Source: Leucobacter soli (GTDB lineage Bacteria > Actinomycetota > Actinomycetes > Actinomycetales > Microbacteriaceae). Taken from it: a DNA stretch of 64,000 nt. The stretch lies in assembly GCF_910593785.1 (NCBI RefSeq), contig NZ_CAJVAP010000008.1, forward strand, positions 1 to 64,000, written 5' to 3'. This document shows, piece after piece, positions 19,759-36,889 of this stretch. The translations under genes and the position numbers were made by a program. Each line of letters begins with the position of its first letter. Within the stretch, counting starts at the first letter, position 1. The notes under the pieces were generated by a model. That model ran no database searches. It saw nothing but the letters and a program-made list of their open reading frames with translations, and was not told the origin of the DNA.

Positions 19759-21024
19759 CTATCCAGCGGGCGGGCGCACGGTCGCGCGTTCGAAGAGGCG
19801 GCGCGGCCGGCCGGCGAGCGCGCCGGCGACGACCTGCGCTGCGCCGATCGCGGTCAGCAGCAGCATCGGGAGCGTCCAGCCACCGCTGGCGGCGAGCAGC
19901 CAGCCGAACAGGATCGGACCCGCTGCGGCGAGCGTGTAGCCGGCGGACTGCGCCATGCCGGAGAGCGCGCTGGCGTCGCCGTGGGTGCGCGTGCGCACCG
20001 CGATGAGGGTGATCGACATCGTGAAGGTCGCGCCGAGGCCCAGCCCGGTCATCGCCGCCCAGAGGACGATGAGCGAGGGGGCGACGATGATGCCGACGCA
20101 GGCCACGAGCAGCGGGACGGGCAGGACCGCCGGGAGCCAGCGCACGAGGCGTCCGCGGTACAGCGCGGGAGTCGCCGCCGATCCCGCGACGCACACGATC
20201 TGGATCACCATCGTGTCGAGGCCGGCCAGCGTCGCCGACCGGCCCTGAGCGGCCTCCATGGCGACGAGCCAGGTGAGGAGCGTGTAGAAGATCGTCGACT
20301 GGGCCCCCATGTAGATCGCGATCTGCCAGGCGAGCGCCTCGCCCCAGACCCTTCGGCCGGAATCGGGGCGGTGCTCGGCACCCGGCCCGTCGGCCGTCGC
20401 CGACGCGGCATCTGCGCCGCCCCGCATCGGGGGGCGCACGTCGCGGTTGCGGAAGGCCCAGCTCCAGGCGACGAGCGCGACGGGGATGGCGAGCCCGAAC
20501 GACAGCAGGGTCCAGCGCCAGCCGAGTTCCTGACCCGCGACCTGGATCCCGGCGAGCGGGATCACGATGCCCGAGGCGATGGCGCCGGCGATCGCCACGG
20601 TCGAGGAGAATGCCCCCATGACGAAGGGGGCGCGATCGTCGAACTCGCGTTTGATGATCGCCGGCATGAGCACGTTGCCGGCGGCGAGTGCGGCGCCGAT
20701 GATCGCGGTGCCGAGCCACAGGTTGATCGGAGACCCCGCGAGCGAGCGCAGCGCGGTGCCCGCGGCGAGGAGGATCAGCGACCAGGCCACGGTGCGATGC
20801 ATGCCGAAGCGTTCGCCGAGACGGTGCATGAGCGGGGAGAGCAGCGCCCAGGTGAGCATCGGGACGGCGCCCAGGGCGCCGAGCGCGGCGAGCCGCATCC
20901 CCTCGCTCGTGGCGATCTCCTCGAGCAGCGGACCGACCGATGCGATCGTGAGCCGCATGTTGATCGACACCAGGACGATCGCGATGAACGGCGGCGACCA
21001 GATGAGCGGATGCCGCGCGCTCAT
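19759..21024 (-). CDS. MFS transporter, CynX/NimT family
   Basis: A 421-residue protein with about 12 hydrophobic helices and the CynX/NimT-like start (FIAIVLVSINMRLTIASVGPLLEEI) plus the MFS loop MHRLGERFGMHRT. This family moves small anions or drug-like compounds (cyanate, nitroimidazole). The ATG overlaps the stop of the upstream dehydrogenase (ATGA), so it belongs to the dapA-type operon and may carry that pathway's substrate or product. Direction cannot be told. Confidence 0.85.
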   Translation of the reverse strand: MSARHPLIWSPPFIAIVLVSINMRLTIASVGPLLEEIATSEGMRLAALGALGAVPMLTWALLSPLMHRLGERFGMHRTVAWSLILLAAGTALRSLAGSPINLWLGTAIIGAALAAGNVLMPAIIKREFDDRAPFVMGAFSSTVAIAGAIASGIVIPLAGIQVAGQELGWRWTLLSFGLAIPVALVAWSWAFRNRDVRPPMRGGADAASATADGPGAEHRPDSGRRVWGEALAWQIAIYMGAQSTIFYTLLTWLVAMEAAQGRSATLAGLDTMVIQIVCVAGSAATPALYRGRLVRWLPAVLPVPLLVACVGIIVAPSLIVLWAAMTGLGLGATFTMSITLIAVRTRTHGDASALSGMAQSAGYTLAAAGPILFGWLLAASGGWTLPMLLLTAIGAAQVVAGALAGRPRRLFERATVRPPAG

Positions 21025-22031
21025 CAATCGGTGCGGTGATAGGTGAGCGGGTTCTCGAAGTGCTTCAGCAGTGAGGAGAGCTGGATCATCCCGCGGTCGC
21101 GCTCCCGGACGTTGTCCTCCCAGGATCGGTGCGGCAGCGAGTTCTCGACCGCGCGGGCGACCTGCTCGATCGTCTCCGGCGTCCAGGGATCCTCCTGGGC
21201 CCGTTCGATGCCGATGCGCGCGTAGACGGGGCCGAGGACCTCGCCGTGCCTGCGCAGACCGCCCCGGGTGTTGAGCTCACTGGTCGTGAACGGGCCGATC
21301 AGCGACCAGCGGAGACCGAGGCCCTCGCGCACGAGCGTGTCCAGCTCCACCGGCGTGACGATCTCGTCGCGCACCAGGCAGTAGGCCTCCCGGAGCAGCG
21401 CTCCCTGCAGACGGTTGAAGACGAAGCCCTCGATCTCCTGCTTCAGCAGGATGGGTGCGAGACCGCTGCTCGCGAGCAGCTCCGACGTCGTGCTGACGGT
21501 CGACTCGGAGGTGAACGGGGCGGGGACGATCTCGGCCACACGCAGGAAGTAGGGCGGATTCGCGGGGTGCACCACGATGCAGCGGTCGCGCCCTGCGAGG
21601 TCCGATGCGAACCGGGAGGCCATGATCGTCGAGGTGGAGCTCGCCAGCACCACGTCCCGCGGGGTGAGCGCGTCGAGCCGGGCGAAGAGCTCCTGCTTGG
21701 CCTCGAGGTTCTCGATGATGCATTCCTGCACGTATCCGACTCCGGCGACCGCCTCTTCGAGCGATCCGCTCACCGAGATGCGGCTCAGCACCGTGGCGAT
21801 GGGTTCCCTGAGCAAGCCGCCCGCCTCGAGCTCGTGCAGCTTCGATTTCGCCTCCCCGAGCGCGATCTCGCGCCGGGCCGGGTCGACCTCCTGCATCTGC
21901 ACCCGTCGGCCGGCGCAGGCGAAGACGATGGCCCAGGCGATGCCGATGCTTCCCGCGCCGACGACGGCGACGGAGTCCACCGCGGAGGCGTGGGGGGCCG
22001 CCTCCGCGGTGTCGAGGGGGGACTCGTCCAT
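21024..22031 (-). CDS. 3-hydroxyacyl-CoA-dehydrogenase-type NAD oxidoreductase
   Basis: A 335-residue protein with an N-terminal NAD-binding fold (VAVVGAGSIGIAWAIVFACAG) and the 3HCDH segments IENLEAKQELF, SSTSTIMAS, HPANPPYFLRVAEIVP with the catalytic His, and a C-terminal helical domain (GFVFNRLQGALLREAY). The size and the HPANPP motif resemble lambda-crystallin-like enzymes (L-gulonate or carnitine 3-dehydrogenase) more than fatty-acid oxidation enzymes. It lies between the DapA-family gene and the MFS gene, overlapping the latter. It probably oxidises a 3-hydroxy acid in the IclR-controlled pathway. Confidence 0.82.
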   Translation of the reverse strand: MDESPLDTAEAAPHASAVDSVAVVGAGSIGIAWAIVFACAGRRVQMQEVDPARREIALGEAKSKLHELEAGGLLREPIATVLSRISVSGSLEEAVAGVGYVQECIIENLEAKQELFARLDALTPRDVVLASSTSTIMASRFASDLAGRDRCIVVHPANPPYFLRVAEIVPAPFTSESTVSTTSELLASSGLAPILLKQEIEGFVFNRLQGALLREAYCLVRDEIVTPVELDTLVREGLGLRWSLIGPFTTSELNTRGGLRRHGEVLGPVYARIGIERAQEDPWTPETIEQVARAVENSLPHRSWEDNVRERDRGMIQLSSLLKHFENPLTYHRTD

Positions 22032-22033
22032 AT

Positions 22034-22966
22034 TCAGAGGCCGATCTGCTTGGTGTACTCGTTCAGCTCGTCGATGATCGCGCCGATGCGCGCCAGGCGC
22101 TCTTCGCCCTCGGCGCCGAGCTGGTCGAAGGTGGTGAGGGGAGCGCGCACGGGGCCCATGGGGAACCCCTCGCGCTGCGCGAGGCGCTTCGAGTAGCACT
22201 GGTGGCCGTAGGTGGGGTGGCCTTCGGCGATGATGGCGTCGAAGCGGTGGATGAGGCGATCGATCTGGCGCGCCTCGTCGATGCGCCCGGCGGTCAGCAG
22301 GTCCCAGATCCCGGCCGATGCGCGGGGGATGTAGTTGCCGTAGGGGTTGACGTATCCTTCGGCCCCGAGGAGGAAGGAGTCGACCACCCGCTCGCCGGCG
22401 TAGACCGTCATGTCGTCGCCCGCGAGCTCGATCACGTCGCGCACGCGAGCGATGTCCTGCGAGGACTCCTTGATGTAGGAGACGTTCTCGAAGTCCTTGG
22501 CGAGGCGCGCCACGAGCTCGGCGCTCATGTCGACGTTCGAGGTGACCGGGTTGTTGTAGAGCATGATCGGCACGCTGGTCGCGTTCGCGATCGCCTCGTA
22601 GTAGCGGTAGATCTCGTCGTCGGTCGGCGTGTAGTAGTAGGGCGGGAGGGTCATGAAGCCGTCGGCGCCCAGCGCCTCGGCCTCGACGCTCTGCTGCACG
22701 GCGATCGCGGTGGACGCGTTCATCGTGCCGACGAGCACGGGGATGCGCCCGTCGATGCGCTTCACGGTCTCCTCGACGAGCAGGCGGCGCTCCTCCGGGG
22801 TCACGGCGACGAACTCGCCGGTGGTGCCGAGCATGATGATGCCGGGCACGCCCTCCTCGAGCTGCCAGTCGAGGAACGCGTGAAGGCGAGGGATATCGAT
22901 GGCGCTGGCGTCATCATTGAAGGGGGTGACAGCGACGGTGTAGGACCCCGTGAACGATTTCGACAT
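22034..22966 (-). CDS. DapA-family aldolase/lyase (Schiff-base class I)
   Basis: A 310-residue TIM-barrel protein with the family marks GTTGE (47-51), Tyr137 in LYNNP and Schiff-base Lys166 in YIKESSQD. The family includes dihydrodipicolinate synthase, N-acetylneuraminate and KDG lyases and the pyrroline-hydroxycarboxylate deaminase of D-hydroxyproline breakdown. It lies in a catabolic operon with a dehydrogenase and a carrier, and opposite a DadA-like flavoprotein, so it is not likely the lysine-pathway DapA. I start at the ATG at 22966; the in-frame codons upstream pass through the IclR-type site. Confidence 0.85.
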   Translation of the reverse strand: MSKSFTGSYTVAVTPFNDDASAIDIPRLHAFLDWQLEEGVPGIIMLGTTGEFVAVTPEERRLLVEETVKRIDGRIPVLVGTMNASTAIAVQQSVEAEALGADGFMTLPPYYYTPTDDEIYRYYEAIANATSVPIMLYNNPVTSNVDMSAELVARLAKDFENVSYIKESSQDIARVRDVIELAGDDMTVYAGERVVDSFLLGAEGYVNPYGNYIPRASAGIWDLLTAGRIDEARQIDRLIHRFDAIIAEGHPTYGHQCYSKRLAQREGFPMGPVRAPLTTFDQLGAEGEERLARIGAIIDELNEYTKQIGL

Positions 22967-23022: not shown

Positions 23023-24180
23023 ATGACAAACGGAAAGCTCAATCGCGAAGTTTTTGATGTTGCCGTCGTCGGAGGCGGCATCAGCGGGTGCGCGACGGCC
23101 TATTTCCTGAGCCGATCGGGCGCGCGCGTCCTGCTCCTGGAACGGCACGATCTCAACACGGAGGCGTCCGGCCGCAACGCGGGGAGCCTCCACGGCCAGA
23201 TCCAGCACGAGCCGTTCCTCGAGGAGGGGGAGGAATGGGCACGGAACTGGCTGCCCGCCCTGCGCTTCCTCGCCGACTCGCTCGAGATCTGGGACGGGCT
23301 CAGCGAGGAGCTCGGCATCGACCTGCAGGTGGCCAAGCGCGGCGGACTGCTCGTCGCCGACCATCCCGACCAGATGCCGGCCATCGAGCGCAAGGTCGCG
23401 CTCGAGCAGAGCATCGGCATCGACAGCCGGGTGCTGACGGGGGACGAGCTCAGGGAGATCGCCCCGTACATCACCGACGACGCCGTAGGAGGGGAGCTCT
23501 GCCCGATCGAGGGCAAGGCCAATCCGCTCCTCGCCGCCCCGGCATTCGCCACGCGGGCGGTCGAGCACGGCGCCGTCATCCGCACCGGCACCAGCGTCGA
23601 GGGGTTCGCCGAGTCCGGCGGCGTCACCGAGATCCGGACCGCGAAGGGCGCGTTCGCGGCGCGCAAGGTCGTGCTGGCCGGCGGCGACGGCATGCCGGAT
23701 CTCGGCCGGCACTTCGGCATCGAGCTGCCGATCAGCAGCGGTGCGGTGCAGGTGAGCGTGACCGAGCGGATCGACCCGCTCGTCAAGCACCTAGTCTACT
23801 ACGCCGGCGGCAAGCTGACGTTCAAGCAGGCGCAGGCCGGCACGCTGCTGATCGGCGGCGGGTGGCCCGCCCGCCAGAACGCGGCGGGCGAGTGGGTGCT
23901 CAACCCGGAGTCCCTGCGCACCAACCTCGGGATCGCGACGCGCGTCGCCCCCGTGGTCTCGGACGTCAAGCTCCTGCGTACCTGGGTCGGGATCGGCAAC
24001 GGCACGCCGGATCACAGCCCGATCATCGGCCCCGTGCCCGGGCACCCGAACGTGATCCTCGGCTTCTACCCCTACATGGGGTTCACCGCCGGCCCGCTGA
24101 TGGGCCGGGTGCTCTCCCGGCTCGCGCAGGACGAGGAGCCGGGGGTCGATCTCCGCCCGTTCGCGCCGGATCGCTTCTGA
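23023..24180 (+). CDS. FAD-dependent amine/imino-acid oxidoreductase (DadA/HcnC-like)
   Basis: A 385-residue DAO-family flavoprotein: an FAD-binding start VVGGGISGCATAYFLSRSGARV, then TEASGRNAG, and a C-terminal FAD segment (WVGIGNGTPDHSPIIGPVPG). Homologues oxidise D-amino acids, sarcosine, glycine or D-hydroxyproline, either alone or as the beta subunit of a complex with a [2Fe-2S]/FAD partner like the one at 24286. Its ATG at 23023 has no clear Shine-Dalgarno and sits close to a possible -10, so the mRNA may be leaderless. Under the IclR-type site at 22988. Confidence 0.83.
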   Translation: MTNGKLNREVFDVAVVGGGISGCATAYFLSRSGARVLLLERHDLNTEASGRNAGSLHGQIQHEPFLEEGEEWARNWLPALRFLADSLEIWDGLSEELGIDLQVAKRGGLLVADHPDQMPAIERKVALEQSIGIDSRVLTGDELREIAPYITDDAVGGELCPIEGKANPLLAAPAFATRAVEHGAVIRTGTSVEGFAESGGVTEIRTAKGAFAARKVVLAGGDGMPDLGRHFGIELPISSGAVQVSVTERIDPLVKHLVYYAGGKLTFKQAQAGTLLIGGGWPARQNAAGEWVLNPESLRTNLGIATRVAPVVSDVKLLRTWVGIGNGTPDHSPIIGPVPGHPNVILGFYPYMGFTAGPLMGRVLSRLAQDEEPGVDLRPFAPDRF

Positions 24181-24285: not shown

Positions 24286-26013
24286 CTACGCGGTGTTCTG
24301 CGGCGGGGCGGCGACATCGATGAGGGGGACCGGTTTGACCGGCGCCTGCGGGGCGAAACCGGATCGTTCGCCGATCGGCGAGCCCGTACGGCGCTCCTGC
24401 ATCGCCGTCAGCACCGGTCCGCAGTAGCGGCCCTGGCACTTGCCCATGCCCGCACGGGTGATCCGCTTGACCGATCCCGGTGAGGAGGTCCGATCCGACA
24501 TCGCCTCGGAGACCTCGGCGTGTGTGACGCTCTCGCACCGGCAGACCACCGTCTCGGGCTCCGCGAGCTGATCGGTGAGCACCGGGGCCGCGAACATGCC
24601 CTGCACGCCCCGCTGGAACGCGAGGTTCCGGCGCGCGGCCCTCCGAGCAGCGGCATCGGGCAGCACGTGGCGCTCGAGTAGTTCGGAGGCGACCGCGGCG
24701 GCTGCGAGGGCGCCCTGGGCCTGAGCGAACTTCGCGCCGCGCACGCCGGCGCTGTCGCCGATCGACCACACCGTCGGGATGGAGGTGCGCCCGGTGGCGT
24801 CGGTCCGGGTGACGAGGCTCCCGAGCGCGGCATCGAAGTCGTGCGCGCAGCCGAGACTGCGGGCGAGATCGTTGCTCGGGAGGAACCCGTAGCCGAGGCA
24901 GACGGCATCCACGTCGAACGCGCGCCGACGACCCGTCGGCCGCCCCTCGGCATCCACCCCCGCGACCGTCGCCCGTCGGACGCCGGTCACGGGATCGCCC
25001 TCGAGCCGTTCGATCACCGATCCCGTGATCAGGGGGACGCGCCTGGCGGCCAGACCCGCCAGGTACTTCACGCCGTCGAGGGTGAGGCCCGGGGAGTTCA
25101 GGCCCATCCGCACTCCGGAGAGGAGCCGCGCCGGCGACAGCATCCTCGACGCCTCTACGAGGCCGACGATGCGCACGCCCGCCCGCGAGAGCTCGGCCGC
25201 GAGCTGGATGTTCAACGGCCCGTTCCCGGCGATCAGCACGCGATCGCCCGCCGAGACCTGGTACGAGCGCAGCAGCGTCTGCCCGGCACCGGTGGTCATG
25301 ACACCCGGCAGGGTCCACCCGGGCACGGGCACGCCGCGCTCGAAGGCTCCGGTCGCGAGGATCACCCGCTTCGGCGCGATCACCCAGCGCTCATCGGCCG
25401 ACCGCGCCATGAAGCGGTCGGGCTCGAAGGCCGCCCAGACCGTCACGCCGGTGAGGGCGGTGATCCCGGCCGAGACGGCCTCGTCCATCAGCTTGCGCCC
25501 GCTGAGGTACTGGCCGTCCAGCTCGCGCTCGTCCACCGGCAGGCCGGTGCTCGGCTGCTTGAAGAACTGGCCGCCGAGCTTCGCCCGGTCGTCGACCACC
25601 AGGACGTCGAGCCCGGCCCGAGCGAGATCCCTCGCTGCCGCCAGGCCGGAGGGGCCGGCGCCGACCACCAGGACGTCGGGCGTGAGCGTGTGCTCGGTCT
25701 TCGCGGCCGCCGCCGCCGACGGCACCAGGCGGTAGACGGGCTGGCACTCGACCTCCTGCCCCGGCCGAGCCGGGGTGGTGCAGGCGAGCGAGCCGCCGTC
25801 GCCGTCGACCGAGACGGTGCACTCGTGGCAGACGCCCATGCCGCACCAGAGGCCGCGACGGCCGCCTTCGATGTCCGCCCGCAGGCCGCGTACGCCGGCG
25901 GCGGTGAGCGCCGAGGCGATGGTGTCGGAGGCGGCCACGGGGATCTCCTGGCCCTCGAAGGTCAGGGATCCGGCCTCGTCGGGCGATCCGACACCGGGCG
26001 AGTTGACCCTCAT
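24286..26013 (-). CDS. [2Fe-2S]/FAD dehydrogenase alpha subunit (HcnA-HcnB-like fusion)
   Basis: A 575-residue fusion. Residues 1-95 are a [2Fe-2S] ferredoxin-like domain with Cys57, Cys62, Cys65 and Cys78. An FAD/NAD-binding disulfide-reductase fold follows (VLVVGAGPSGLAAARDLARAG, later GDRVLIAGNGPLNIQ and the SIGDSAG motif). The C-terminus is a BFD-like [2Fe-2S] region (VCRCES, then GKCQGRYCGP). This is the layout of HcnA+HcnB, opine/octopine and D-hydroxyproline dehydrogenases and of sarcosine-oxidase alpha without its GcvT-like tail. It probably works with the DadA-like flavoprotein encoded at 23023. ATGA overlap with the PLP gene upstream; last gene of a five-gene operon. Confidence 0.85.
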   Translation of the reverse strand: MRVNSPGVGSPDEAGSLTFEGQEIPVAASDTIASALTAAGVRGLRADIEGGRRGLWCGMGVCHECTVSVDGDGGSLACTTPARPGQEVECQPVYRLVPSAAAAAKTEHTLTPDVLVVGAGPSGLAAARDLARAGLDVLVVDDRAKLGGQFFKQPSTGLPVDERELDGQYLSGRKLMDEAVSAGITALTGVTVWAAFEPDRFMARSADERWVIAPKRVILATGAFERGVPVPGWTLPGVMTTGAGQTLLRSYQVSAGDRVLIAGNGPLNIQLAAELSRAGVRIVGLVEASRMLSPARLLSGVRMGLNSPGLTLDGVKYLAGLAARRVPLITGSVIERLEGDPVTGVRRATVAGVDAEGRPTGRRRAFDVDAVCLGYGFLPSNDLARSLGCAHDFDAALGSLVTRTDATGRTSIPTVWSIGDSAGVRGAKFAQAQGALAAAAVASELLERHVLPDAAARRAARRNLAFQRGVQGMFAAPVLTDQLAEPETVVCRCESVTHAEVSEAMSDRTSSPGSVKRITRAGMGKCQGRYCGPVLTAMQERRTGSPIGERSGFAPQAPVKPVPLIDVAAPPQNTA

Positions 26014-27551
26014 GCGTGCTGCTCCGAAGCGCTCGAATGCTTGCGCCGGTAGGCCGCCCAGGTGACCGCCCACTGCTCCGGATCGTCGAGACCCGAGCCG
26101 TCGATCTGCGCGACGACCTGATTGTGCGGCGCGGTGCGCACCAGCTCGGGGTCGCGGCGCCCCTCGTCGAGCACGTGCGCGAGCACGTCGATCCATTCGT
26201 CGAGATCCTCCTTCGACCACATCTCGCCGGCTTCGGGGGTGAACGGCTCGGGGACGATCCAGGGCTCGTGCGCGAGCCAGTAGGCGTCGATGCCGAAGTC
26301 GGTCATCCGGTTCTGCACGTCGACCGTCGAGAGCCCGGTCTCGGCCGTGTACTCCTCGAGGGAGTAGCGGGTCATCTCGAGGCGCGGCAGCGCCTTCCCG
26401 GGGAACGACATGGTGACGCCGGGGATCCGCATGAGGCGCTTCTCCATGTAATTGTTCGCGAGCACCGAGATGTCGGCGGCCTCGCGCAACCCGTCGGTGC
26501 CCATGGCGCGCGTCCACGAGTACGCCTTGACCAGCTGCTGCACGTTGCCGATGAACTCGCGGACCCTTCCGACGCTCTGCGCCGGCTCGATCAGCTCGTA
26601 GCGATCGCCGTCCCGCACGACGCGGGGGCCGGGCAGGAACTCGGCGAGCTCCGCCGAGCAGCCGTACGCGCCGACCGAGGGGCCGTTGCCGCCCTTCGGC
26701 ACGCCGAAGCTCTTGTGCAGCATGTACATGCAGGCGTCGAAGCCGAGATCCCGTGCGCGCAGGCGGGTCATCACGCCGTTGAAGTTGGCGTTGTCGTAGA
26801 AGCAGAGCCCGCCGACGGCGTGCACGGCGTCGATGAATTCCGTGATCCGCGGGTTGTAGATGCCCATGTCGTCGGGGTTGTTCAGCACCAGCGCCGCGGT
26901 GCGCGGGCCGATCGCGGCCTGCAGCGCCTCGAGCGACGGATAGCCCTCCTCCTCGACGGGCAGGGTGATCACCTCGAAGCCCGCGGCCTTCGCCGTAGCC
27001 GGGTTGCAGGGGTGCGCCTGCTGCGTCGTCACGATCTGGGTGCGCTGGGAGAGTTCGCCGCGCGAGGCGTGGTAGGCGCGCGTCACCACCGCGTTCAGGT
27101 AGGCCGCGTCGGCGCCGCCTCCCGGCTGGAAGCTGTAGGCGGACATGCCCGAGAGGTTGCACAGCTCCTGCTCGAGGTCGTGCACGATGCCCAGCAGCCC
27201 CTGATAAGTCGCGGGATCCTGCCGCGGGTGCACGGCCGCCACCTCGGGCCGTGCCGTGATCTGCTCGTTGACGGTCGGGTTGTGCTTCATCGTGCAGGTG
27301 CCGAAGAGGCTGATGCCGATCATGCCCATCGTCTGCTGAGACAGATGGGTGAAGTGACGGCGCACCTCGTATTCGGCGAGCTCGGGCAGATCGGCCTCCG
27401 CCGTGCGCCGCAGCGCAGCGGGGAAGGCGGATCCCTCGCGCGACGGCGCCCATGGGGCGGGAGGGACGACCCCGCGCCGGCCGGGCGCGCCCAGCTCGTA
27501 GACGATTCCCTCATCCCAGGATGCGGCGTGGTAGCGGCGGATCGCGCTCAT
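26010..27551 (-). CDS. Divergent glycine-decarboxylase-like PLP enzyme, subunit 2 (GcvPB-like)
   Basis: A 513-residue fold-type I PLP protein recognisable as GcvPB: GTCTMKHNPTVNEQ (84-97) and the QPGGGADA-type region near 142-149. Lys280 in MLHKSFGVPKGGNGPSVGA is the PLP lysine. Canonical GcvPB has HKTF-x-x-PHGGGGPG here, so PHGGGGPG has become PKGGNGPS; the His-to-Lys and Gly-to-Asn changes line the active site. It overlaps its partner subunit and the [2Fe-2S]/FAD gene by ATGA junctions. No H- or T-protein gene is in the window. A substrate other than glycine is likely; this is inference. Confidence 0.8.
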   Translation of the reverse strand: MSAIRRYHAASWDEGIVYELGAPGRRGVVPPAPWAPSREGSAFPAALRRTAEADLPELAEYEVRRHFTHLSQQTMGMIGISLFGTCTMKHNPTVNEQITARPEVAAVHPRQDPATYQGLLGIVHDLEQELCNLSGMSAYSFQPGGGADAAYLNAVVTRAYHASRGELSQRTQIVTTQQAHPCNPATAKAAGFEVITLPVEEEGYPSLEALQAAIGPRTAALVLNNPDDMGIYNPRITEFIDAVHAVGGLCFYDNANFNGVMTRLRARDLGFDACMYMLHKSFGVPKGGNGPSVGAYGCSAELAEFLPGPRVVRDGDRYELIEPAQSVGRVREFIGNVQQLVKAYSWTRAMGTDGLREAADISVLANNYMEKRLMRIPGVTMSFPGKALPRLEMTRYSLEEYTAETGLSTVDVQNRMTDFGIDAYWLAHEPWIVPEPFTPEAGEMWSKEDLDEWIDVLAHVLDEGRRDPELVRTAPHNQVVAQIDGSGLDDPEQWAVTWAAYRRKHSSASEQHA

Positions 27552-28948
27552 CGGACGACCTCCTTCAGGGCGGCGAGCAGCTGTTCGACGTCCTCCTCGG
27601 CGATCACCTCGGTGACGCAGTAGAGCGCGCAGCCGTCGAGGGCCTCGTGGGTGCCGGTGAGATCGTGGCCCCCGAGGATGCCGTGCTCCAGCAGCGCCGC
27701 GTTGATCTCGGCGACGGAGCGGCCGGTGCCGCTGAAGTCGACGATGAACTCCTTGAAGATGCGGTCGCCGTAGCGCACCGAGACCCCGGGGAGCTCATCG
27801 ATCAGCTCGGCCGTGCGCCGGGCGTTGGCGACGACCGTGTCGGCGAGCTCCCGGAATCCCGCCGGGCCGAGCAGCGACATGTAGACGGCTGCGCGGATCG
27901 CCCAGAGGTAGACGGAGTTGCCCGTCCAGTCGTTGCCGAGCTCGCGCGCGCCGTAGGAGCTCTGCCCGAAGAGCGTCATGCCGAAGGCGCGCTCGCCCTC
28001 CCGAGCGGTGGGGGCGAGACTCACCTGCAGCGTCGGGAACTGGCGCGCGTAACGCTCCTCGTCGCGCGAGGCGATGAATCCGCCGACGCCGCCGCCGGCG
28101 TTCAAGTGGATCCCGAGCGGTTGCAGCGAGCCGACGAGGATGTCGGCACCGAAGACCGCCGGGGAGGCCAGCCCGCCGAGCGAGATCGGATCGACCCCGA
28201 TCACCGCTTCGGCACCGGCGTCGTGCGCGGAGGCGATGATCCGCTCGATCTCGTGCTCGATGACGCCCCAGGAGTTCGGTGTCTCGACGTAGACGGCGGC
28301 GACGCGATCGTCGAGCGCCTCGGTGAGCGCCGCGAGGGACACCGTACCCGTTTCAGGATCGATCGCGACCTCGCGCACGGTCAGGGCGCCCGGCATCTCC
28401 GCGTAGCCGCAGTAGGTGTCGATGACGAGGCGCCGTTCCCGATCGAGGTTCGCGGGCAGCACGACGACGTCCCGGCCGGTGAGGCGGGAGGCCATGCGAA
28501 GCGCGTGGCCGGCGGCCGTCGCCCAGCTGTAGATGGGCAGTCCGACGAACTCGAGTTCCAGCAGGGCGCCGAGCTGCGACGTGAATTCGAACCACGCCTG
28601 GTTGCGGCCGTGGTCGGAGCTCGGCGTGCCCCAGACGGAGGTCGAGATCTCGGGCCGCGCGACGATCTCGTCGCAGAGCGCGGGGACGTAGTGCTTCCAG
28701 TACCCGCCGCCGAGGAACGAGAGATGGCTCTCGGTCGAAACGCCGCCCCGGAGGCGCCCCTCGATCATCCGCCGGAGCGCGAACTCCGAGCGGATCCCCT
28801 CGCGGGGCTCGATCCGCTCGTCGGCGCGCTGCGCGGCCGGGATCTGCGTGAACAGCTCCTCGATGTCGTCGATGCCGACCGCGTCGATCAGCGCCTGTCT
28901 GCTGCCTGCGGCGGAGTTCGCCATATAGGGGTGCGCCGAACGGCTCAT
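27548..28948 (-). CDS. Divergent glycine-decarboxylase-like PLP enzyme, subunit 1 (GcvPA-like)
   Basis: A 466-residue partner of the preceding protein. The family start PYMANSAAGSRQALIDAVGIDDIEELF and FLGGGYWKHYVPAL are clear. But the canonical YTPYQPEISQG stretch is replaced by WGTPSSDHGRNQ, and the usual N-(A/S)-S-(L/M)-Y-D-G-(A/G)-T-A segment reads PIYSWATAAGHA. The ATG at 28948 has AGGAGA eight nt upstream. It lies 53 nt after the kinase-like gene and overlaps subunit 2. Two-subunit P-proteins occur widely in Gram-positives, but this pair has its own diverged active-site segments. Confidence 0.78.
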   Translation of the reverse strand: MSRSAHPYMANSAAGSRQALIDAVGIDDIEELFTQIPAAQRADERIEPREGIRSEFALRRMIEGRLRGGVSTESHLSFLGGGYWKHYVPALCDEIVARPEISTSVWGTPSSDHGRNQAWFEFTSQLGALLELEFVGLPIYSWATAAGHALRMASRLTGRDVVVLPANLDRERRLVIDTYCGYAEMPGALTVREVAIDPETGTVSLAALTEALDDRVAAVYVETPNSWGVIEHEIERIIASAHDAGAEAVIGVDPISLGGLASPAVFGADILVGSLQPLGIHLNAGGGVGGFIASRDEERYARQFPTLQVSLAPTAREGERAFGMTLFGQSSYGARELGNDWTGNSVYLWAIRAAVYMSLLGPAGFRELADTVVANARRTAELIDELPGVSVRYGDRIFKEFIVDFSGTGRSVAEINAALLEHGILGGHDLTGTHEALDGCALYCVTEVIAEEDVEQLLAALKEVVR

Positions 28949-29001: not shown

Positions 29002-30147
29002 TCAGGCGGCCGCGTCAATTACCCGCATGACGCTGCTCTGGCGAGCGCCCGTGCACACGCGTCGGTAGCCCTCGAGCGGGTGCGGCCGTCGGTCGCCGTC
29101 GCCCGTCGCCCGTCGGTCGTCGTCGACGTCGATGAGCAGCACCGGCGGGAACAGCCCGCCGATCTTCTCCTCGGCGGCGACGATGCTCACGCGGTCGGCA
29201 CCGATCCGGCCGATCACCCGTGTGCTGATCTCCTGGTTGCCGCGCCCCAGGAGGAAGCCCTGGCCGCCCACGACTCCGAGCACGAGATGCGGCTCGGCGG
29301 CGTCGCGTGCGATCTCGTAGAGGCGAGCCTCGTCGACGTCGAGCTCGATGTCGCCCGACGGATGCCGCACGTCCACTCCGCGGAGCGTGGCCGCGAAGCC
29401 GAGCTCCGCGGCGAGGGCGCCGGTGGTGGTCCCGGGGCCCAGCACCCAGGTCGTGGCGTCGCCGGACGCGGCGATCAGCTCGCGGGCGATCGTGCGGCGA
29501 GCGGCGGCCCCGTCCTGCGGGCGCGCGGAGGACTTCGCCCCCTGCAGCGGTTCGCGAGCCCTCGGCGCGCGCAGCTCCGCGACCACGCCGGTGCGATCGT
29601 CGGGGCCCACGTCGAGCACCTCGACGATCGCGGACTCCCGGGAGCCGTGCAGGAACTGGGAGAGGAGGCGCCCGGCCGCCTCGGGCGACCTCGCGAACAC
29701 CTCGGAGTGCATCTTCACGCCGGAGGGCACGCCGATCACGGGCACGTCGGTCCCGATCGCCTCGGCGATATCGGTCGCCGTGCCGTCGCCCCCGGCGAAG
29801 ACGATGCAGCAGACCCCGGCGTCCCTGAGCGCCCGTGCGGCGGCTATCGTGTCGGTGCGCCTGGTGCGCTCGCGCGGCGATGGCACCGGCGCGTCCAGCA
29901 CTCGGTGCGCGATGCCCGCCGTGCTCAGCGCCCGCCCGCCGAGCAGCCCGGGAGGGGCCAGCAGCTCGGCGGCCGCATCAGGGCGGCCCAGACCCTCGAC
30001 GGCGCGGATCAGGCGGCGCTCGGCGCGGCCGGCGGCCACGGCCTCGTCGAACCGGCCCTCGGGCAGCCGGTCGGTGCCGTGCAGCGCCAGCGTGCCGCCG
30101 AACCCCGCGATGGGGTTCAGCAGCACGCCGACGCCGAGGGGAGCCAT
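29002..30147 (-). CDS. ATP-NAD kinase-family protein (AcoX-like)
   Basis: A 381-residue member of the NAD kinase/diacylglycerol kinase superfamily: a nucleotide-binding GGDGTATDIAEA motif, GVPSGVKMHSEVFA, and GPGTTTGALA in the C-terminal beta domain. The size and GVPSGVKM pattern are those of AcoX-like proteins rather than true NAD kinase. Such proteins sit in catabolic operons, for example acetoin, and their substrate is usually unknown. It lies between the class III aminotransferase and the GcvP-like genes, 8 nt after the former. Confidence 0.8.
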   Translation of the reverse strand: MAPLGVGVLLNPIAGFGGTLALHGTDRLPEGRFDEAVAAGRAERRLIRAVEGLGRPDAAAELLAPPGLLGGRALSTAGIAHRVLDAPVPSPRERTRRTDTIAAARALRDAGVCCIVFAGGDGTATDIAEAIGTDVPVIGVPSGVKMHSEVFARSPEAAGRLLSQFLHGSRESAIVEVLDVGPDDRTGVVAELRAPRAREPLQGAKSSARPQDGAAARRTIARELIAASGDATTWVLGPGTTTGALAAELGFAATLRGVDVRHPSGDIELDVDEARLYEIARDAAEPHLVLGVVGGQGFLLGRGNQEISTRVIGRIGADRVSIVAAEEKIGGLFPPVLLIDVDDDRRATGDGDRRPHPLEGYRRVCTGARQSSVMRVIDAAA

Positions 30148-30155
30148 GACCGCCG

Positions 30156-31526
30156 CTAGGCCTTCCGCTGCGCTTCGACGGCCCGGTCGAGGCCGGTGCG
30201 CACGCCGGCGACCATGCGCTCGAGCTCGCTCTCGGTCACCACGAAGGGCGGCGAGAACGAGACGGTGTCCGCGGCCGGCAGAGCGCGGGTGATCACGCCT
30301 TCGGCGAGCGCTCCCTGGTAGACCGCGCCCGCGAAGGCGCCCTGGGCGGCGAAGGGGCGGAGGGGCTCCCGCGACTCCACGAACTCGACGGCGGCCATGA
30401 GGCCGCGCCCGCGGATCTCACCGACGTTCGGATGGTCCGCGAACGCCGCGTGCAGCAGTTCGCTCAGCAGCTCGCCCTTGCGCGCGACCTCGGCCACGAG
30501 GCCGTCGCGCTCGATGATGTCGAGGTTCTTCATCGCTGCGGCCGCGGCGAGCGGGTGCGCCGAATAGGTGTATCCGTGGCCGAAGCTGCCGTACTTGGCC
30601 GAGCCCTCGAGCATCACCTGCCAGATGCGGTCGCTGACGAGCACGGCGGAGAGGGGGACGTAGGCGGAGGTGATGCCCTTGGCGACCGTCATCAGGTCGG
30701 GCTGCATGTTCACGGCGTTCGATCCGAACGGCACGCCCAGGCGGCCGAAGCCGTTGACCACCTCGTCGGCGATCAGCAGCACGTCGTGGCGGCGGAGCAC
30801 CTCCTGGATCTTCGGGAAGTAGGTCTCCGGCGGCACGATCACGCCGCCGGCCGCCATCACGGGCTCGGCGATCATGGCGGCGACCGTCTCGGGACCCTCG
30901 TTGATGATGAAGCGCTCGAGCTCGACGGCGAGGGCGGTGGCGAACTCGTCGTCGGTCTGACCCGGCTCCCGCTCCCAGAGGCCGTGCGGCGGACGAACGT
31001 GGCGGATCATCGGCAGCGGCAGGTCGAAGCCGTCGTGGAGGTTCTTGAACCCGGTGAGCCCGCCCGAGAGCACCGTCACCCCGTGGTAGCCGCGCCGGCG
31101 GGAGATGATCTTCTTCTTCTCCGGGCGCCCGAGCACGTTGTTGTAGTACCAGACGAGCTTCGCCTGGGTATCGTTCGCGTCGGAGCCCGAGTTGCCGTAG
31201 AAGACCTTGCTCATCGGCACCGGCGCCATCTCGATGAGCCTCTCGGAGAGCTGCGCCGGCAGGTCGGTGCCCATCGACGAGAAGGCGTGGAAGTAGGGCA
31301 GCTTGAGCGTCTGCTCGCGGAGGGCGTCCGCCATCTCCGGGTGGGAGTAGCCGACGTTCACGCACCAGAGGCCGGCCATCGCATCGAGGTAGTCCCGACC
31401 CGCGCGGTCGGTGACGGTGGAACCGTGGGCGGACACGACGGTCATCGGCGGGCCGGTCTGCTCGTGGGCCGCCAGATTCGTCATGGGATGGAAGAGGTAG
31501 TTCTTGTCCTTTTCCTCGATCTCCAC
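30156..31526 (-). CDS. Class III (omega) aminotransferase
   Basis: A 456-residue PLP aminotransferase: the start DYLDAMAGLWCVNVGYSHPEM, NSGSDANDTQAKLVWYY for cofactor phosphate binding, the Asp in LLIADEVVNGFGR, and the Schiff-base Lys in DLMTVAKGITSAYVPL. The subgroup transfers amino groups from omega-amino acids, beta-alanine or amines to pyruvate or 2-oxoglutarate. Start is the GTG at 31526 with GGGAG upstream. It opens the operon aminotransferase, AcoX-like, GcvPA-like, GcvPB-like, [2Fe-2S]/FAD dehydrogenase. The divergent semialdehyde dehydrogenase could oxidise its aldehyde product. Confidence 0.9.
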   Translation of the reverse strand: MEIEEKDKNYLFHPMTNLAAHEQTGPPMTVVSAHGSTVTDRAGRDYLDAMAGLWCVNVGYSHPEMADALREQTLKLPYFHAFSSMGTDLPAQLSERLIEMAPVPMSKVFYGNSGSDANDTQAKLVWYYNNVLGRPEKKKIISRRRGYHGVTVLSGGLTGFKNLHDGFDLPLPMIRHVRPPHGLWEREPGQTDDEFATALAVELERFIINEGPETVAAMIAEPVMAAGGVIVPPETYFPKIQEVLRRHDVLLIADEVVNGFGRLGVPFGSNAVNMQPDLMTVAKGITSAYVPLSAVLVSDRIWQVMLEGSAKYGSFGHGYTYSAHPLAAAAAMKNLDIIERDGLVAEVARKGELLSELLHAAFADHPNVGEIRGRGLMAAVEFVESREPLRPFAAQGAFAGAVYQGALAEGVITRALPAADTVSFSPPFVVTESELERMVAGVRTGLDRAVEAQRKA

Positions 31527-31649: not shown

Positions 31650-33119
31650 ATGGTTTCGACTCGAGAGGCGCTCGCCGACAGCGGCCTGCTGCGCACCGAA
31701 CTCTTCTACGGCGGCCAGTGGCGCGAGGGCTCGACCGGCGAGCGCAGCGCGGTCATCGACCCGGCGACGGGCGAGGAGATCGCGCAGGTCGCGGTCGCGA
31801 CCGCCGAAGACGTGGAGGCCGCTATCGACGCGGCCGGCGAGGCGTTCACGACCTGGTCGAAGGTGCCCGCACCGGAGCGGTCGCGCATCCTGCGCCGGTG
31901 GTACGAGCTGGTGGTCGCCCACGCCGACGAGCTCGCCGAGATCCTCACCTGGGAACAGGGCAAGCCCCTCGCCGAGGCTCGGGGCGAGGTGCTCTACGGC
32001 GCCGGCTTCATCGAGTGGTTCGCCGAGGAGGCCAAGCGGCTCTACGGCGAGGTCATCCCGACCAACAACCCGAACCGGCGCATGATGACGACGCGCAGCG
32101 CCGTCGGGGTCACCGCGGCCATCACGCCGTGGAACTTCCCGAGCGCCATGATCCTGCGCAAGGCCTCGCCGGCGCTCGCCGCCGGCTGCACCATGATCAT
32201 CAAGCCGGCCAGCGAGACCCCGCTCTCCGCCTTCGCCCTCGTCGCCCTCGCCGAGCAGGCGGGCATCCCCGCCGGCGTGCTCAGCGTGGTCAACGGCAAG
32301 GGATCGGTCATCGGCGGGATCTTCACCTCGCACGATCTGATCCGCACGATCAGCTTCACCGGATCCACCGAGGTCGGCCGCACGCTGATGGAGCAGTCCG
32401 CCGGCACGATCAAGCGTCTCGCCCTCGAGCTCGGCGGCAACGCCCCGCTGATCGTCTTCGACGACGCGGACATCGAGACCGCGGTCAAGGGCACGATGGA
32501 CTCGAAGTTCCGCAACGCCGGCCAGACCTGCGTCTGCGCGAACCGCATCTTCGTGCAGGCGGGCATCCACGACGCCTTCGTCGCGGCGCTCGCGCGCGAG
32601 GTCGCGAAGCTTCGCGTCGGCGACGGCCGCGATCCCGAGACCACCCAGGGTCCGCTGATCTCGCAGTCGGCGCTCGAGAAGGTGGAGTCGCACGTCGCCG
32701 ACGCCACGGCGAAGGGCGGCACGATCGTCAACGGCGGCGCGCGGAGCGATCTCGGCGGCACCTTCTACTCTCCCACCGTGATCGTCGGCGCTACCCCCGA
32801 GATGCGCGTCGCGAGCGAGGAAACGTTCGGCCCCATCGCCCCGGTGTTCAAGTTCACGACCGAGGAGGAGGCGATCGAGCTGGCGAACGACACGGAGTTC
32901 GGTCTCGCCGGATACTTCTTCAGCCGTGACATCGGCCGCGTCACGCGCGTCGCCGAGGCGCTCGAGGTGGGCGTCGTCGGCGTGAACACCGGCCTCATCT
33001 CGTACGAGGGCGCACCGTTCGGCGGCGTGAAGCAGTCGGGCATCGGCCGTGAGGGCTCGATGCACGGCATCGAGGAGTACACGGAGCTGAAGTACATCTG
33101 CATCGAGGGAGTGCTGTGA
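31650..33119 (+). CDS. gabD: NAD(P)-dependent succinate-semialdehyde-type dehydrogenase
   Basis: A 489-residue ALDH: ITPWNFP, general-base Glu in LALELGGNAP and catalytic Cys in NAGQTCVCANR, with the TCVCANR form typical of succinate-semialdehyde dehydrogenases. It should oxidise a short semialdehyde, either succinate or 2-oxoglutarate semialdehyde, to the acid. I favour the ATG at 31650 (GCGAGGA upstream) over 31629. The stop overlaps the SDR start. Divergent from the aminotransferase operon across IclR-type site 2. Confidence 0.88.
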   Translation: MVSTREALADSGLLRTELFYGGQWREGSTGERSAVIDPATGEEIAQVAVATAEDVEAAIDAAGEAFTTWSKVPAPERSRILRRWYELVVAHADELAEILTWEQGKPLAEARGEVLYGAGFIEWFAEEAKRLYGEVIPTNNPNRRMMTTRSAVGVTAAITPWNFPSAMILRKASPALAAGCTMIIKPASETPLSAFALVALAEQAGIPAGVLSVVNGKGSVIGGIFTSHDLIRTISFTGSTEVGRTLMEQSAGTIKRLALELGGNAPLIVFDDADIETAVKGTMDSKFRNAGQTCVCANRIFVQAGIHDAFVAALAREVAKLRVGDGRDPETTQGPLISQSALEKVESHVADATAKGGTIVNGGARSDLGGTFYSPTVIVGATPEMRVASEETFGPIAPVFKFTTEEEAIELANDTEFGLAGYFFSRDIGRVTRVAEALEVGVVGVNTGLISYEGAPFGGVKQSGIGREGSMHGIEEYTELKYICIEGVL

Positions 33120-33880
33120 ACGATCTCAGCGGGAAGACGGTGCTGGTCACCGGAGCATCGAGCGGCATCGGGTTCGCGACGGTGCGGCGCCTGGCGTCGA
33201 CGGGCGCGCGGGTGGTCGCGCACTACCATTCGAACGCGGACGGGGCGCGCGCGGCGACGACCGGGTACGCCGAGGGCGATGCGATGCTCGTCTCGGCGGA
33301 CCTCGGAGCGCCGGGCGGCGCGGCGGAGCTGTGGGAGCGGGCCGTGGCCGCGGCCGGGCGGATCGACGTGGTGGTGCTGAACGCCGGGATCATGCCGAAG
33401 GTCGAGCTGGACGCTCCCGACGACGAGTGGGACGAAGTGCTCGGGCGCGCGCTGCAGGTGAACGCGCTCAGTCAGCTCGCGCTCGTGCGCCGCGCGCTCG
33501 GGCACTTCTCGGCGCACGGCGCCGGCGTCCTGATCGGCCTGAGCAGCTGGGTGACCCAGCGCGGCGCGGGCAACCCGAACCTCGCTGTCTACGCCGCCTC
33601 CAAGGCGGCCACGGCGGCGGCGCTCAAGACGGTGGCGCGCGCCTACGCGAAGGCGGGGGTGCTCACCTACCTGATCGCGCCCGGCGCCGTGGACACGCAG
33701 ATGACCGCCGACTCGGCGGCCGACCGCGGCGGACGCGAGGCCCTCATGCAGACCCTCGCCATGGGCGAGATGGTGCCGCCCGAGGAGATCGCCGAGCTTG
33801 TCGCTATGCTTTCGGGAGGAAAGGTTCGTCATCTCAGCGGGGCCACGCTGGACATCAACGGGGCCTCCTACGTTCGATGA
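33116..33880 (+). CDS. SDR-family oxidoreductase
   Basis: A 254-residue classical SDR with TGASSGIG, NAG (in LNAGIM), catalytic Ser in LSSW and YAASK. The GTG start overlaps the dehydrogenase stop (GTGA), so it is cotranscribed. It probably acts on a hydroxy/keto intermediate of the same pathway; the cofactor cannot be fixed with certainty. The IclR gene follows after about 60 nt. Confidence 0.85.
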   Translation: MNDLSGKTVLVTGASSGIGFATVRRLASTGARVVAHYHSNADGARAATTGYAEGDAMLVSADLGAPGGAAELWERAVAAAGRIDVVVLNAGIMPKVELDAPDDEWDEVLGRALQVNALSQLALVRRALGHFSAHGAGVLIGLSSWVTQRGAGNPNLAVYAASKAATAAALKTVARAYAKAGVLTYLIAPGAVDTQMTADSAADRGGREALMQTLAMGEMVPPEEIAELVAMLSGGKVRHLSGATLDINGASYVR

Positions 33881-33942: not shown

Positions 33943-34737
33943 ATGACAGACACTGACCAGGCACGCCCGTCGGGCGAATTCGTGCAGTCCCTCGCCCGTG
34001 GGCTGGCGGTGATCCGCGCGTTCTCGAACGAGCGCAGCATGCTCACGCTGGCCGACGTCGCCCGGATCGCCGGGTTGAGCCGTGCCTCGGCGCGGCGGTC
34101 CCTCCTGACGCTGGAGTCCCTCGGCTACATCGGCAGCCGGGAGAACCGCTTCTACCTCCGGCCCCGAGTGCTTGATCTCGGCTACGCGTTCCTCTCGTCA
34201 TCCTCGGTGGTCGACATCACGCAGGATCACCTGCGGCGCCTCTCCGCCCGGATCGGCGAATCGTGCTCGGCCTGCGAGTACGACGACGGCGACGTCGTCT
34301 ACGTGGCGCGGGCCGCGGCGGACTCCGTGATGCCGATCCGGCTGGGCATCGGCCGTCGCCTCCCGGCGTTCTGCACCAGCACCGGGCTCGTGTTGCTCTC
34401 GGCGTTCAGCGACGAGGCGCTCGACGAGTTCTTCGAGAAGTACCCGCGCGAGAAGATCTCTCCCGCCACCGTGACGGACGAGGCGAAGATCCGCGAGCGG
34501 CTCCACGAGGTCCGGGAGCGCGGATGGTCGCTGAACAACCAGGAGGTGGATCTCGGCGGCCGTTCGGTCGCCGCGCCCATCGTCGGGCCGTCGGGCGAGT
34601 ACCTCAGCGCGGTGAACATCACGGTGTCGACCTCGCGGGTATCGGTGGAGCAGCTGGTCGACGAGTACCTGCCTCAGCTGCTCGAGACGACGAAGCAGAT
34701 CAGTTCCGAAGTCGCCCTGGTGGCGCGTCAACGTTAG
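33943..34737 (+). CDS. IclR-family transcriptional regulator
   Basis: A 264-residue IclR protein. The winged helix is at about residues 10-75 (EFVQSLARGLAVIRAF, LTLADVARIAGLSRASARRSLLTLESLGYI) and the ligand domain follows (PIRLGIGRRLPAFCTSTGLVLLS, WSLNNQEVDLGGRSVAAPI), resembling PcaU/PobR/PcaR activators of aromatic-acid catabolism. An ATG at 33913 is an alternative start. It is flanked on both sides by the genes it presumably controls, and four 17-bp sites of one pattern occur in their promoters. Confidence 0.9.
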   Translation: MTDTDQARPSGEFVQSLARGLAVIRAFSNERSMLTLADVARIAGLSRASARRSLLTLESLGYIGSRENRFYLRPRVLDLGYAFLSSSSVVDITQDHLRRLSARIGESCSACEYDDGDVVYVARAAADSVMPIRLGIGRRLPAFCTSTGLVLLSAFSDEALDEFFEKYPREKISPATVTDEAKIRERLHEVRERGWSLNNQEVDLGGRSVAAPIVGPSGEYLSAVNITVSTSRVSVEQLVDEYLPQLLETTKQISSEVALVARQR

Positions 34738-34787: not shown

Positions 34788-35576
34788 TCATCCCTGATTG
34801 GTGTTGACGACCCGGGAGAGGAACTGGCGGGTGCGCTCCTCGCGGGGGTTGTCGAGGACCTCGGCCGGCGTGCCCTGCTCGATGATGTCCCCGCCGTCCA
34901 TGAAGGCGACGCGATCCGCCACGTCCCGCGCGAAGTCGATCTCGTGGGTGACCACCATCATGGTGAGACCCTCGGAGGCGAGCCGGCGCATGACCGAGAG
35001 GACCTCGCCGACGGTCTCCGGATCGAGGGCGGAGGTCGGCTCGTCGAAGAGCATCACCTTGGGCCGCATCGCCAGCGCACGCGCGATCGCGGCGCGCTGC
35101 TGCTGACCGCCGGAGAGCTGCCTCGGGTAGGTGTTCTCCTTGCCCTCGAGGCGCACCCATTCGAGCAGCTGGCGCGCGTGCTCGAGTGCCTTCGCCTTCG
35201 ACTCGCGGAGCACCTGCACCGGCGACTCGATGATGTTCTCGAGGACGGTCATGTGCCCGAAGAGGTTGAAGCTCTGGAACACCATCCCCACCTCGGTCCG
35301 CTGCCGGGTGAGCTCTGCCGGGGGCAGCTCGACGAGGCGGTCGTTGCGCACCTCGACGCCGATCATCTCGCCGTCGACCTTCACCCAGCCCTCGTCGGGC
35401 TGCTCGAGGTGGTTGACGCAGCGCAGCAGCGTGCTCTTGCCCGAACCGGAGGGGCCGATGATGCAGACGACCTCGCCCGCGTAGACGTCGAGGTCGACGC
35501 GGTCGAGCACGTGGAGCGGCCCGAAGCTCTTCGAAACGCCCTCGATCTGGATCAGCGGAGTCTTGTCTTCGGTCAT
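34788..35576 (-). CDS. Polar amino-acid ABC transporter ATP-binding protein
   Basis: A 262-residue ABC ATPase of the HisP/GlnQ type: Walker [11 protein letters not shown]-loop [15 protein letters not shown], signature LSGGQQQR, Walker [15 protein letters not shown] and switch THE. The FNLFGHMT segment and PxxALEHA spacing mark the polar amino-acid family. It follows its permease with a one-base TGATG overlap. It powers import of the substrate bound by the lipoprotein encoded at 36890. Confidence 0.92.
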
Positions 35577-36583: not shown

Positions 36584-36684
36584 GAGCAGTCCGTCTCTCT
36601 CTTCGGTGAATGGCGGCGGCACGCCCGGTGCTCTGCTGATCACACTAGCCAAGCATTTTCCTCTGCGTTCGTCAAGCGACCAAC

Positions 36685-36701
36685 TGTGCGAATAGCGCAC
36701 A
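36685..36701. promoter_or_regulatory. IclR-type site 3
   Basis: TGTGCG-AATAG-CGCACA, a perfect 6+5+6 inverted repeat, the best of the four related sites. It is closer to the permease gene. Confidence 0.6.
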
Positions 36702-36758
36702 AGTTGCGGGAAGCGCGCGCGTCGTGCCCGAATCGTGACCTGTCCTTCTTGACAAGAT

Positions 36759-36775
36759 TGGACGTATAGTGAACA
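36759..36775. promoter_or_regulatory. IclR-type site 4
   Basis: TGGACG-TATAG-TGAACA, 17 bp, almost the same as site 1 (12 of 17 or more shared, including GTAT and GTGAACAC around it). It overlaps a TTGACA/TATAGT region likely to be the binding-protein promoter. Confidence 0.5.
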
Positions 36776-36889
36776 CTAGTGCGCAGAGCGAACATTTCCG
36801 GTCGATGGATCTGGATCCACTCCGGAGTGCGACGTCTCTCATAAGGCTGGTATCGACGTGGACACTAACACCCGAAGGAGCACTGTCCC

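Follow-up and report, generated by a model that had tools for sequence, protein, structure and literature searches.

Pairs of a kinase and a pyridoxal 5'-phosphate (PLP) enzyme that handle hydroxylated amino compounds are known from fold families other than the one considered here, such as threonine kinase/CobD, hydroxylysine kinase/PHYKPL and sphingosine kinase/S1P lyase. Hydroxyproline and opine oxidase islands (LhpBCEF, OoxAB, HcnABC) encode an iron-sulfur/flavin (FeS-FAD) subunit and a DAO subunit, and those of the hydroxyproline type also a dihydrodipicolinate-synthase (DHDPS) family enzyme; to our knowledge, none of them carries a GcvPA/GcvPB pair with a kinase. AcoX of acetoin operons has been reported as needed for acetoin dehydrogenase activity, and excerpts of PMC10943186 portray it as a predicted small-molecule kinase with no known substrate, whose gene lies beside that of a C-C bond-cleaving enzyme. 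For the P-protein of human glycine decarboxylase (GLDC), excerpts of PMC7259800 place Y161, Y164, T894 and W897 in the active site and, by docking, Q366, I372, R373 and K376 at the interface with the H protein. Here, we analyze a P-protein-like gene pair, GcvPA/GcvPB (together GcvPAB), in a 64,000-nucleotide stretch of Leucobacter soli DNA (contig NZ_CAJVAP010000008.1, positions 1 to 64,000; hereafter the window). Judged by its sequence, GcvPAB is a separate α-β PLP enzyme family of the P-protein fold and not the cell's ordinary glycine decarboxylase.

As the original prediction had described, both subunits are present and coupled: they are encoded by minus-strand open reading frames that overlap by 4 nucleotides (nt), and GcvPB overlaps the following [2Fe-2S]-FAD gene by another 4 nt (Table 1). 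The class III aminotransferase (AT3) gene ends 8 nt before the kinase gene, which in turn lies 53 nt upstream of GcvPA, giving the order AT3-kinase-PA-PB-FeSFAD. We rejected a pseudogene or an artefact as an explanation, because both frames are intact and carry a strong coding signal (third-position GC content 0.93 each). The pair shares with canonical P-proteins the fold and subunit plan, the PLP lysine in its HK(T/S)F motif, and the GxCTMK segment. GcvPB is 32–33% identical to 1WYT_B/1WYU_B by structural alignment; GcvPA is 27–32% identical to six two-subunit GcvPA proteins. P-protein structures were also the best Foldseek matches of a GcvPB fold model, which was of modest confidence (predicted local distance difference test 69.8, with the first 100 residues poor) and served to confirm the fold only. 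Both subunits pass their NCBIfam cut-offs by a modest margin, which can explain why such genes are annotated as GcvPA and GcvPB; all seven annotated plasmid relatives carry the gcvPA/gcvPB names, and in six of the seven the kinase gene lies directly beside the pair.

In an 88-row maximum-likelihood tree (quick mode), 48 noncanonical rows stand apart from 40 canonical ones on a branch 1.54 changes per site long, whose Shimodaira-Hasegawa-like approximate likelihood ratio (SH-aLRT) is 100. The noncanonical part splits into the window type, whose deepest branch is a haloarchaeal member, and a sister type; one row that had been labelled window type beforehand (L126) grouped with the sister clade. 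The divide recurs in database scores. Among the 40 listed of 159 plasmid records with a match, eight are 49–60% identical and the other 32 at most 39%. Among 199 genomes of the window's family, the variant profile scores nine at 566–937 bits and the other matches listed at no more than 221; judged by the PLP-loop motif, seven of the nine are of the sister type. Across 296 genomes of the phylum, 119 match at E 1e-100, two of them above 800 bits and the other 117 at 339–466, a range that corresponded to canonical two-subunit forms in the 28 examined.

The L. soli genome holds a canonical system as well. On contig C14, gcvT and gcvH accompany a one-chain gcvP (563 bits), which rules out the window pair as the sole gcvP of the genome. 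Two checks that the original prediction had proposed, a genome search and a tree, thus came out in its favor: a second, canonical gcvP with gcvT and gcvH exists, and the pair falls outside the canonical enzymes among relatives that share its kinase neighborhood. The same holds beyond this species, since canonical gcvP was found in 27 of 28 variant-bearing genomes chosen from the 80 genome loci described below (382–602 bits). In the exception (G209, the genome of L030), gcvH is present and canonical gcvP had no match, possibly owing to a fragmented assembly. The gcvH gene occurs in all 28, and its co-occurrence is therefore uninformative as a test of H independence. In genome G207 (that of L027), we noticed three GDC-P matches, the canonical gcvP at 538 bits and two others at 206 and 161, possibly including a further divergent copy.

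We compared the window with 88 loci of close relatives, comprising eight plasmids and the best 80 genome contigs of 249 confirmed relatives, with 49–89% identity. The loci of G808 and G175, whose contigs have the same lengths as those of L077 and L025, are probably repeats of the latter. The 88 loci span actinobacteria, proteobacteria and one haloarchaeon, and the recurrence of the same features across them led us to reject a chance origin. The 4-nt PA/PB overlap recurs in 73 of 86 related pairs. By tblastn, an H-protein gene appears in none of the 88 loci and in none of nine family loci (one being the window's own), while the query used for the 88 loci matched 12 of 36 canonical comparison loci. 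A T-like stretch was found in only one of the 88 (L039, 24.6% identity). The H and T proteins of the L. soli genome, used as tblastn queries, likewise had no match in the window, in agreement with the original prediction. Apart from these loci, a Deinococcus sp. QL22 plasmid (L110:1038-6059) encodes a GcvPA/PB pair of canonical appearance next to a MOSC protein and a class III aminotransferase, with no gcvH or gcvT in its 6.4-kb stretch.

Alignment of GcvPB (89 window-type, 14 sister and 40 canonical rows) and GcvPA (87, 13 and 12 rows) revealed 44 PB and 23 PA columns, 67 in all, in which at least 90% of window-type rows hold one residue and at least 80% of canonical rows another. We transferred human GLDC numbering through PDB chain 6i33 (K711 = K754, an offset of 43). 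The canonical YTPYQPEISQG loop reads GTPSSDHG in the window (within V-W-G-T-P-S-S-D-H-G), and its G107, S111, D112 and G114 are present in 87 of 87 PA rows. At the Y161 position, 80 of 87 window-type rows have valine and all 13 sister rows tyrosine; the Y164 position is deleted in all 100 noncanonical PA rows, and that of T894 is Trp425 in both the window-type and sister clades. At the proposed H-protein interface, the arginine and lysine are largely gone. R373, kept in 12 of 12 canonical rows, remains in two of 87 window-type and two of 13 sister rows (alanine in the window); K376 is lysine in eight of 87 and none of 13, against nine of 12 canonical rows plus two with arginine (leucine in the window); and I372 has gone from all 100 noncanonical rows, 87 of them window-type.

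The PLP core, by contrast with these segments, is kept. Lys280 and His279 are present in all rows (K280 in 97 of 97 noncanonical and 12 of 12 canonical), and His180 and Asp253 are invariant in a 30-row window-type alignment. New invariant residues have appeared: E392 and R395 in both noncanonical clades, R390 in the window type, and K286, which replaces the histidine of the glycine-rich loop in window-type rows only (89 of 97 noncanonical PB rows). From the alignment, R390, R395 and K286 would be placed in the pocket. Lys280 and the PKGGNGPS and GTPSSDHG motifs are as originally quoted, and PKGGNGPS turns out to be a local form of the more usual PKGGGGPA (N289 in 12 and S292 in 10 of 97 noncanonical PB rows). 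With its PLP core retained and its active-site and H-docking segments changed, GcvPAB appears capable of catalysis, though not of the usual reaction with glycine and lipoamide. It thus differs from canonical P-proteins in its clade, its YTPY loop, H-interface, Thr894 position and glycine-rich loop, and in having a kinase and no gcvH beside the pair.

The most constant companion of GcvPAB is the kinase, which tblastn located in 84 of 88 relatives' loci and in none of the 36 canonical loci, which have flanks of only 1.5–6 kb. It adjoins PA or PB in 80 of 83 gene-caller cases, sharing their strand in 54 and running opposite to them in 26; in a further locus (L051), where the gene caller missed it, tblastn places it next to PA on the opposite strand. 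The kinase is missing from four loci: three (L042, L054 and L073) are cut by contig ends, and in the fourth, that of the haloarchaeon (L016), its gene is found on the same plasmid at a distance of ~55 kb, in the vicinity of aminotransferase, DHDPS, short-chain dehydrogenase (SDR) and CoA-transferase genes. The protein bears the marks of the NAD-kinase/diacylglycerol-kinase superfamily, namely the NAD_kinase domain and the GGDGT nucleotide-binding motif; GGDGT (119–123), GVK (143–145) and GRGN (301–304) are invariant in a 40-row alignment. The AcoX label denotes only a resemblance, and the Pfam match points to an NAD-kinase-like family. By description, the two are alike in that a predicted small-molecule kinase gene lies beside an enzyme gene; the partner here is a PLP enzyme, whereas that of AcoX is the thiamine-pyrophosphate/lipoyl acetoin dehydrogenase. 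The kinase and PLP pairs known from other folds differ in that here the PLP half is a P-protein relative. A second strong match to the kinase profile was absent from 11 genomes. Standalone relatives of the kinase occur in Aeromonas and Pseudoalteromonas (L201:5938-7107 and L202:5983-7110, 48% and 44% identical to the module kinases), with no GcvPAB homologue among the genes called nearby. On a Peptoclostridium acidaminophilum plasmid (L199:8695-10771), a relative overlaps the gene of a HisC/CobD-like PLP enzyme, forming another kinase and PLP pair.

The remaining neighbors vary from locus to locus. Outside the annotated plasmids, genes were called by codon usage; genes at stretch edges are missed, and the SDR, DAO and ABC transporter clusters may mix paralogues. 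In the 60 loci flanked by 8 kb or more on each side, calls were made for the kinase in 58 (59 with L051), FeS-FAD in 41, the 3-hydroxyacyl-CoA dehydrogenase (3HCDH) family in 40, SDR1 in 40, DAO in 36, AT3 in 35, SDR2 in 34, IclR in 31, succinate-semialdehyde dehydrogenase (SSADH) in 28, OYE in 23, and DHDPS of type a in 20 and of type b in 15. Over all 88 loci the calls were 3HCDH 54, FeS-FAD 53, SDR1 50, DAO 44, AT3 43, IclR 36, SSADH 33, DHDPS type a 30 and type b 18, and OYE 26. Some loci add a 3-oxoacid CoA-transferase, a 3-oxoadipyl-CoA-thiolase-like enzyme or an alanine dehydrogenase (the last in four loci, one confirmed by NCBIfam), and two loci without AT3 (L012, 19892-21886, and L017) have a primary-amine oxidase, an acyl-CoA synthetase and an APC permease near the module. 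The functional unit is the three-gene module kinase-PA-PB, to which the flavoprotein and transaminase genes are variable accessories. The original prediction had correctly named the [2Fe-2S]/FAD dehydrogenase, AcoX-like kinase and class III aminotransferase, all confirmed by Pfam or NCBIfam, and had suggested that the product may pass to the flavoprotein or transaminase; this emphasis fits the 41 and 35 of 60 loci that have these genes, but is too narrow given the constancy of the kinase. The window resembles hydroxyproline and opine oxidase islands in bringing together FeS-FAD, DAO and DHDPS-family genes, and differs from them in that these genes are accessory. Reading a substrate from the neighbors failed: hydroxyproline-like, hydroxylysine, γ-hydroxy amino acid and lysine-type routes each fit some of the genes and none fits all.

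In the sister clade, the kinase sits in a different setting. An SDR-kinase-PB-PA block is constant in 12 sister loci (L119, L120, L122, L124, L156 and L170-L176). Pfam confirmed a GH42 β-galactosidase in all six loci tested (L119, L122, L156, L170, L171 and L173) and an MGH1-like/GH63-clan glycosidase in all seven tested (L119, L120, L122, L171, L173, L175 and L176). L122 and L176 encode a confirmed sugar-type binding protein, in place of which L124 carries an ABC gene of the oligopeptide type; an SSADH-like gene is present in L121 and L123, the former also with an amidohydrolase and a 3HCDH (Pfam). A β-galactosidase and an α-glucosidase beside an amino-compound enzyme suggest, as an idea rather than a result, a glucosyl-galactosyl conjugate. 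One known conjugate of this kind is the glucosylgalactosyl-hydroxylysine of collagen, and YgjK has specificity for Glc-α-1,2-Gal. In the excerpted account of YgjK, a complex with glucose and lactose is shown and the natural substrate is assumed to be another α-glucoside.

The separate clade, the retained PLP core, the rebuilt segments, the kinase partner, the lack of a nearby H gene and the canonical system elsewhere in the genome together lead us to view GcvPAB as an H-protein-independent PLP enzyme that, together with the kinase, processes a hydroxylated or acidic amino compound, a view to which we give an even chance. Taken separately, GcvPAB most likely works without the lipoyl H protein, on a substrate that the kinase prepares or activates, and it probably acts on an amino compound other than glycine, and a larger one. 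The idea of an enzyme for another amino acid thus stands only insofar as the changed active-site and H-docking residues speak against an ordinary glycine enzyme. In a possible mechanism, the NAD-kinase-family kinase would phosphorylate an amino alcohol or a hydroxylated amino acid on its hydroxyl group, and GcvPAB would hold the substrate, made anionic by the phosphate or acidic in itself, with its new invariant arginine and lysine residues. PLP carbanion chemistry could then follow one of two courses: the substrate loses CO2 and becomes an amine, or it loses phosphate and ammonia and becomes an aldehyde. A proton or the leaving group, in place of lipoamide, would quench the quinonoid. The product would enter a local route of transaminase, semialdehyde dehydrogenase and hydroxyacid dehydrogenase, joined in some loci by CoA transferase and thiolase; in the window, an amine or aldehyde could pass to AT3 and SSADH. 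In a more specific version, which we consider rather unlikely, kinase and GcvPAB may form an unrecognized two-step system of phosphorylation followed by lipoate-free removal of CO2 or of phosphate and ammonia, with different substrates in the two clades; the substrate of the sister clade would be the aglycone part of a glucosyl-galactosyl conjugate, collagen 5-hydroxylysine being the first candidate.

Several observations weigh against H independence and a dedicated kinase: gcvH is available in all 28 genomes, both NCBIfam glycine-enzyme cut-offs are exceeded, and the absence of the kinase from the canonical loci is weaker evidence given their short flanks. The first two of these would suit a specialized glycine decarboxylase that relies on the chromosomal H protein, for instance to remove glycine formed by the island's amine oxidases, as DAO/SoxB-like oxidases can release glycine or glyoxylate. 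We consider this very improbable, since the active-site tyrosines, the Thr894 equivalent and most H-interface positions have changed in a fixed manner, 27 of the 28 genomes already hold a canonical gcvP, and the loci offer no H gene and a single T-like stretch. The kinase could, on the other hand, be an AcoX-like activator or repair enzyme that keeps GcvPAB active on an unphosphorylated substrate, which would account for its pairing with two GcvPAB clades in different gene settings; yet any orthology to acetoin AcoX is putative, and the invariant GGDGT motif fits a working kinase, making this role improbable in our estimate.

A rather unlikely but more serious contender is that GcvPAB is a plain α-decarboxylase for a larger amino acid, whose amine is converted to an aldehyde by the transaminase or an amine oxidase while the kinase serves another step. 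Decarboxylation is the parent chemistry of the fold, a transaminase or, in L012 and L017, a primary-amine oxidase accompanies the module, and the semialdehyde dehydrogenase, alanine dehydrogenase and CoA-transferase genes fit a flow from amine to aldehyde to acid. However, no complete AT3 was called in 25 of the 60 well-covered loci (in at least one, L011, the aminotransferase is cut by the stretch edge), and the kinase is steadier than any amine-handling gene and also follows the sister clade into its different setting. This constancy suggests that the kinase works with GcvPAB directly, as in the H-independent, kinase-coupled enzyme that we favor.

In open-access literature (titles, abstract starts and term counts), we found no paper describing the kinase and GcvPAB pair, and articles on the kinase, on similar catabolic gene sets and on bacterial hydroxylysine breakdown likewise included none on it. 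The near-constant pairing is the most interesting feature of the locus and offers a handle on an orphan kinase class. A P-protein independent of the lipoyl H protein would put this fold to a new use, and relatives named glycine dehydrogenase in the examined plasmid records of alphaproteobacteria, Rhodococcus and a haloarchaeon would bring a glycine reaction into metabolic models where it is probably misplaced. If the two-step system were true, it would supply a substrate class for AcoX-type kinases and turn many glycine dehydrogenase annotations into a new enzyme.

The window pair sits in an amine-catabolism island that lacks gcvH and gcvT, and whose genes are collected in Table 1.

Table 1. 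Genes of the island around GcvPAB, with positions in the window and the matches on which each assignment rests.
Feature	Position	Strand	Basis
GcvPA-like subunit, noncanonical clade, 466 aa	27548..28948	(-)	NCBIfam PRK00451 378.5 bits (cut-off 364); loop and H-interface motifs replaced
GcvPB-like catalytic subunit, PLP Lys280, 513 aa	26010..27551	(-)	NCBIfam PRK04366 492.8 bits (cut-off 441); tree; fold model
AcoX-like/NAD-kinase-family small-molecule kinase	29002..30147	(-)	Pfam NAD_kinase 66.8 bits
Class III aminotransferase, omega-transaminase type	30156..31526	(-)	Pfam Aminotran_3; PRK06105 557 bits (cut-off 517)
Fused 2Fe-2S/FAD/BFD dehydrogenase subunit (opine-oxidase, Hcn, SoxA-like)	24286..26013	(-)	Fer2_4, Pyr_redox_2, Fer2_BFD, SO_alpha_A3
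DAO/SoxB-like FAD amine oxidase subunit	23023..24180	(+)	Pfam DAO 212 bits
Dihydrodipicolinate-synthase family lyase/deaminase	22034..22966	(-)	Pfam DHDPS
3-hydroxyacyl-CoA/L-carnitine dehydrogenase family enzyme	21024..22031	(-)	PRK06129 370.8 bits (cut-off 347)
Succinate-semialdehyde-dehydrogenase family enzyme	31650..33119	(+)	TIGR01780 686.5 bits (cut-off 646)
Short-chain dehydrogenase 1	33116..33880	(+)	Pfam adh_short
IclR-family regulator (PcaR/PcaU/PobR-like)	33943..34737	(+)	TIGR02431 279 bits, just below cut-off 284.75
Polar-amino-acid-type ABC transporter, whole	34788..37834	mixed strands	Pfam ABC_tran, SBP_bac_3
ABC ATPase	34788-35576	(-)	Pfam ABC_tran
ABC permease	35576-36583	(-)	similarity to clustered neighbor only
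ABC substrate-binding protein, family 3	36890-37834	(+)	Pfam SBP_bac_3
Short-chain dehydrogenase 2	37922-38674	(+)	Pfam
OYE-family oxidoreductase	38691-39785	(+)	Pfam

Elsewhere in the window, positions 59725-59952 match the GDC-P family weakly and below threshold (18.2 bits) within a 525-aa open frame on the minus strand, which perhaps encodes another PLP enzyme.

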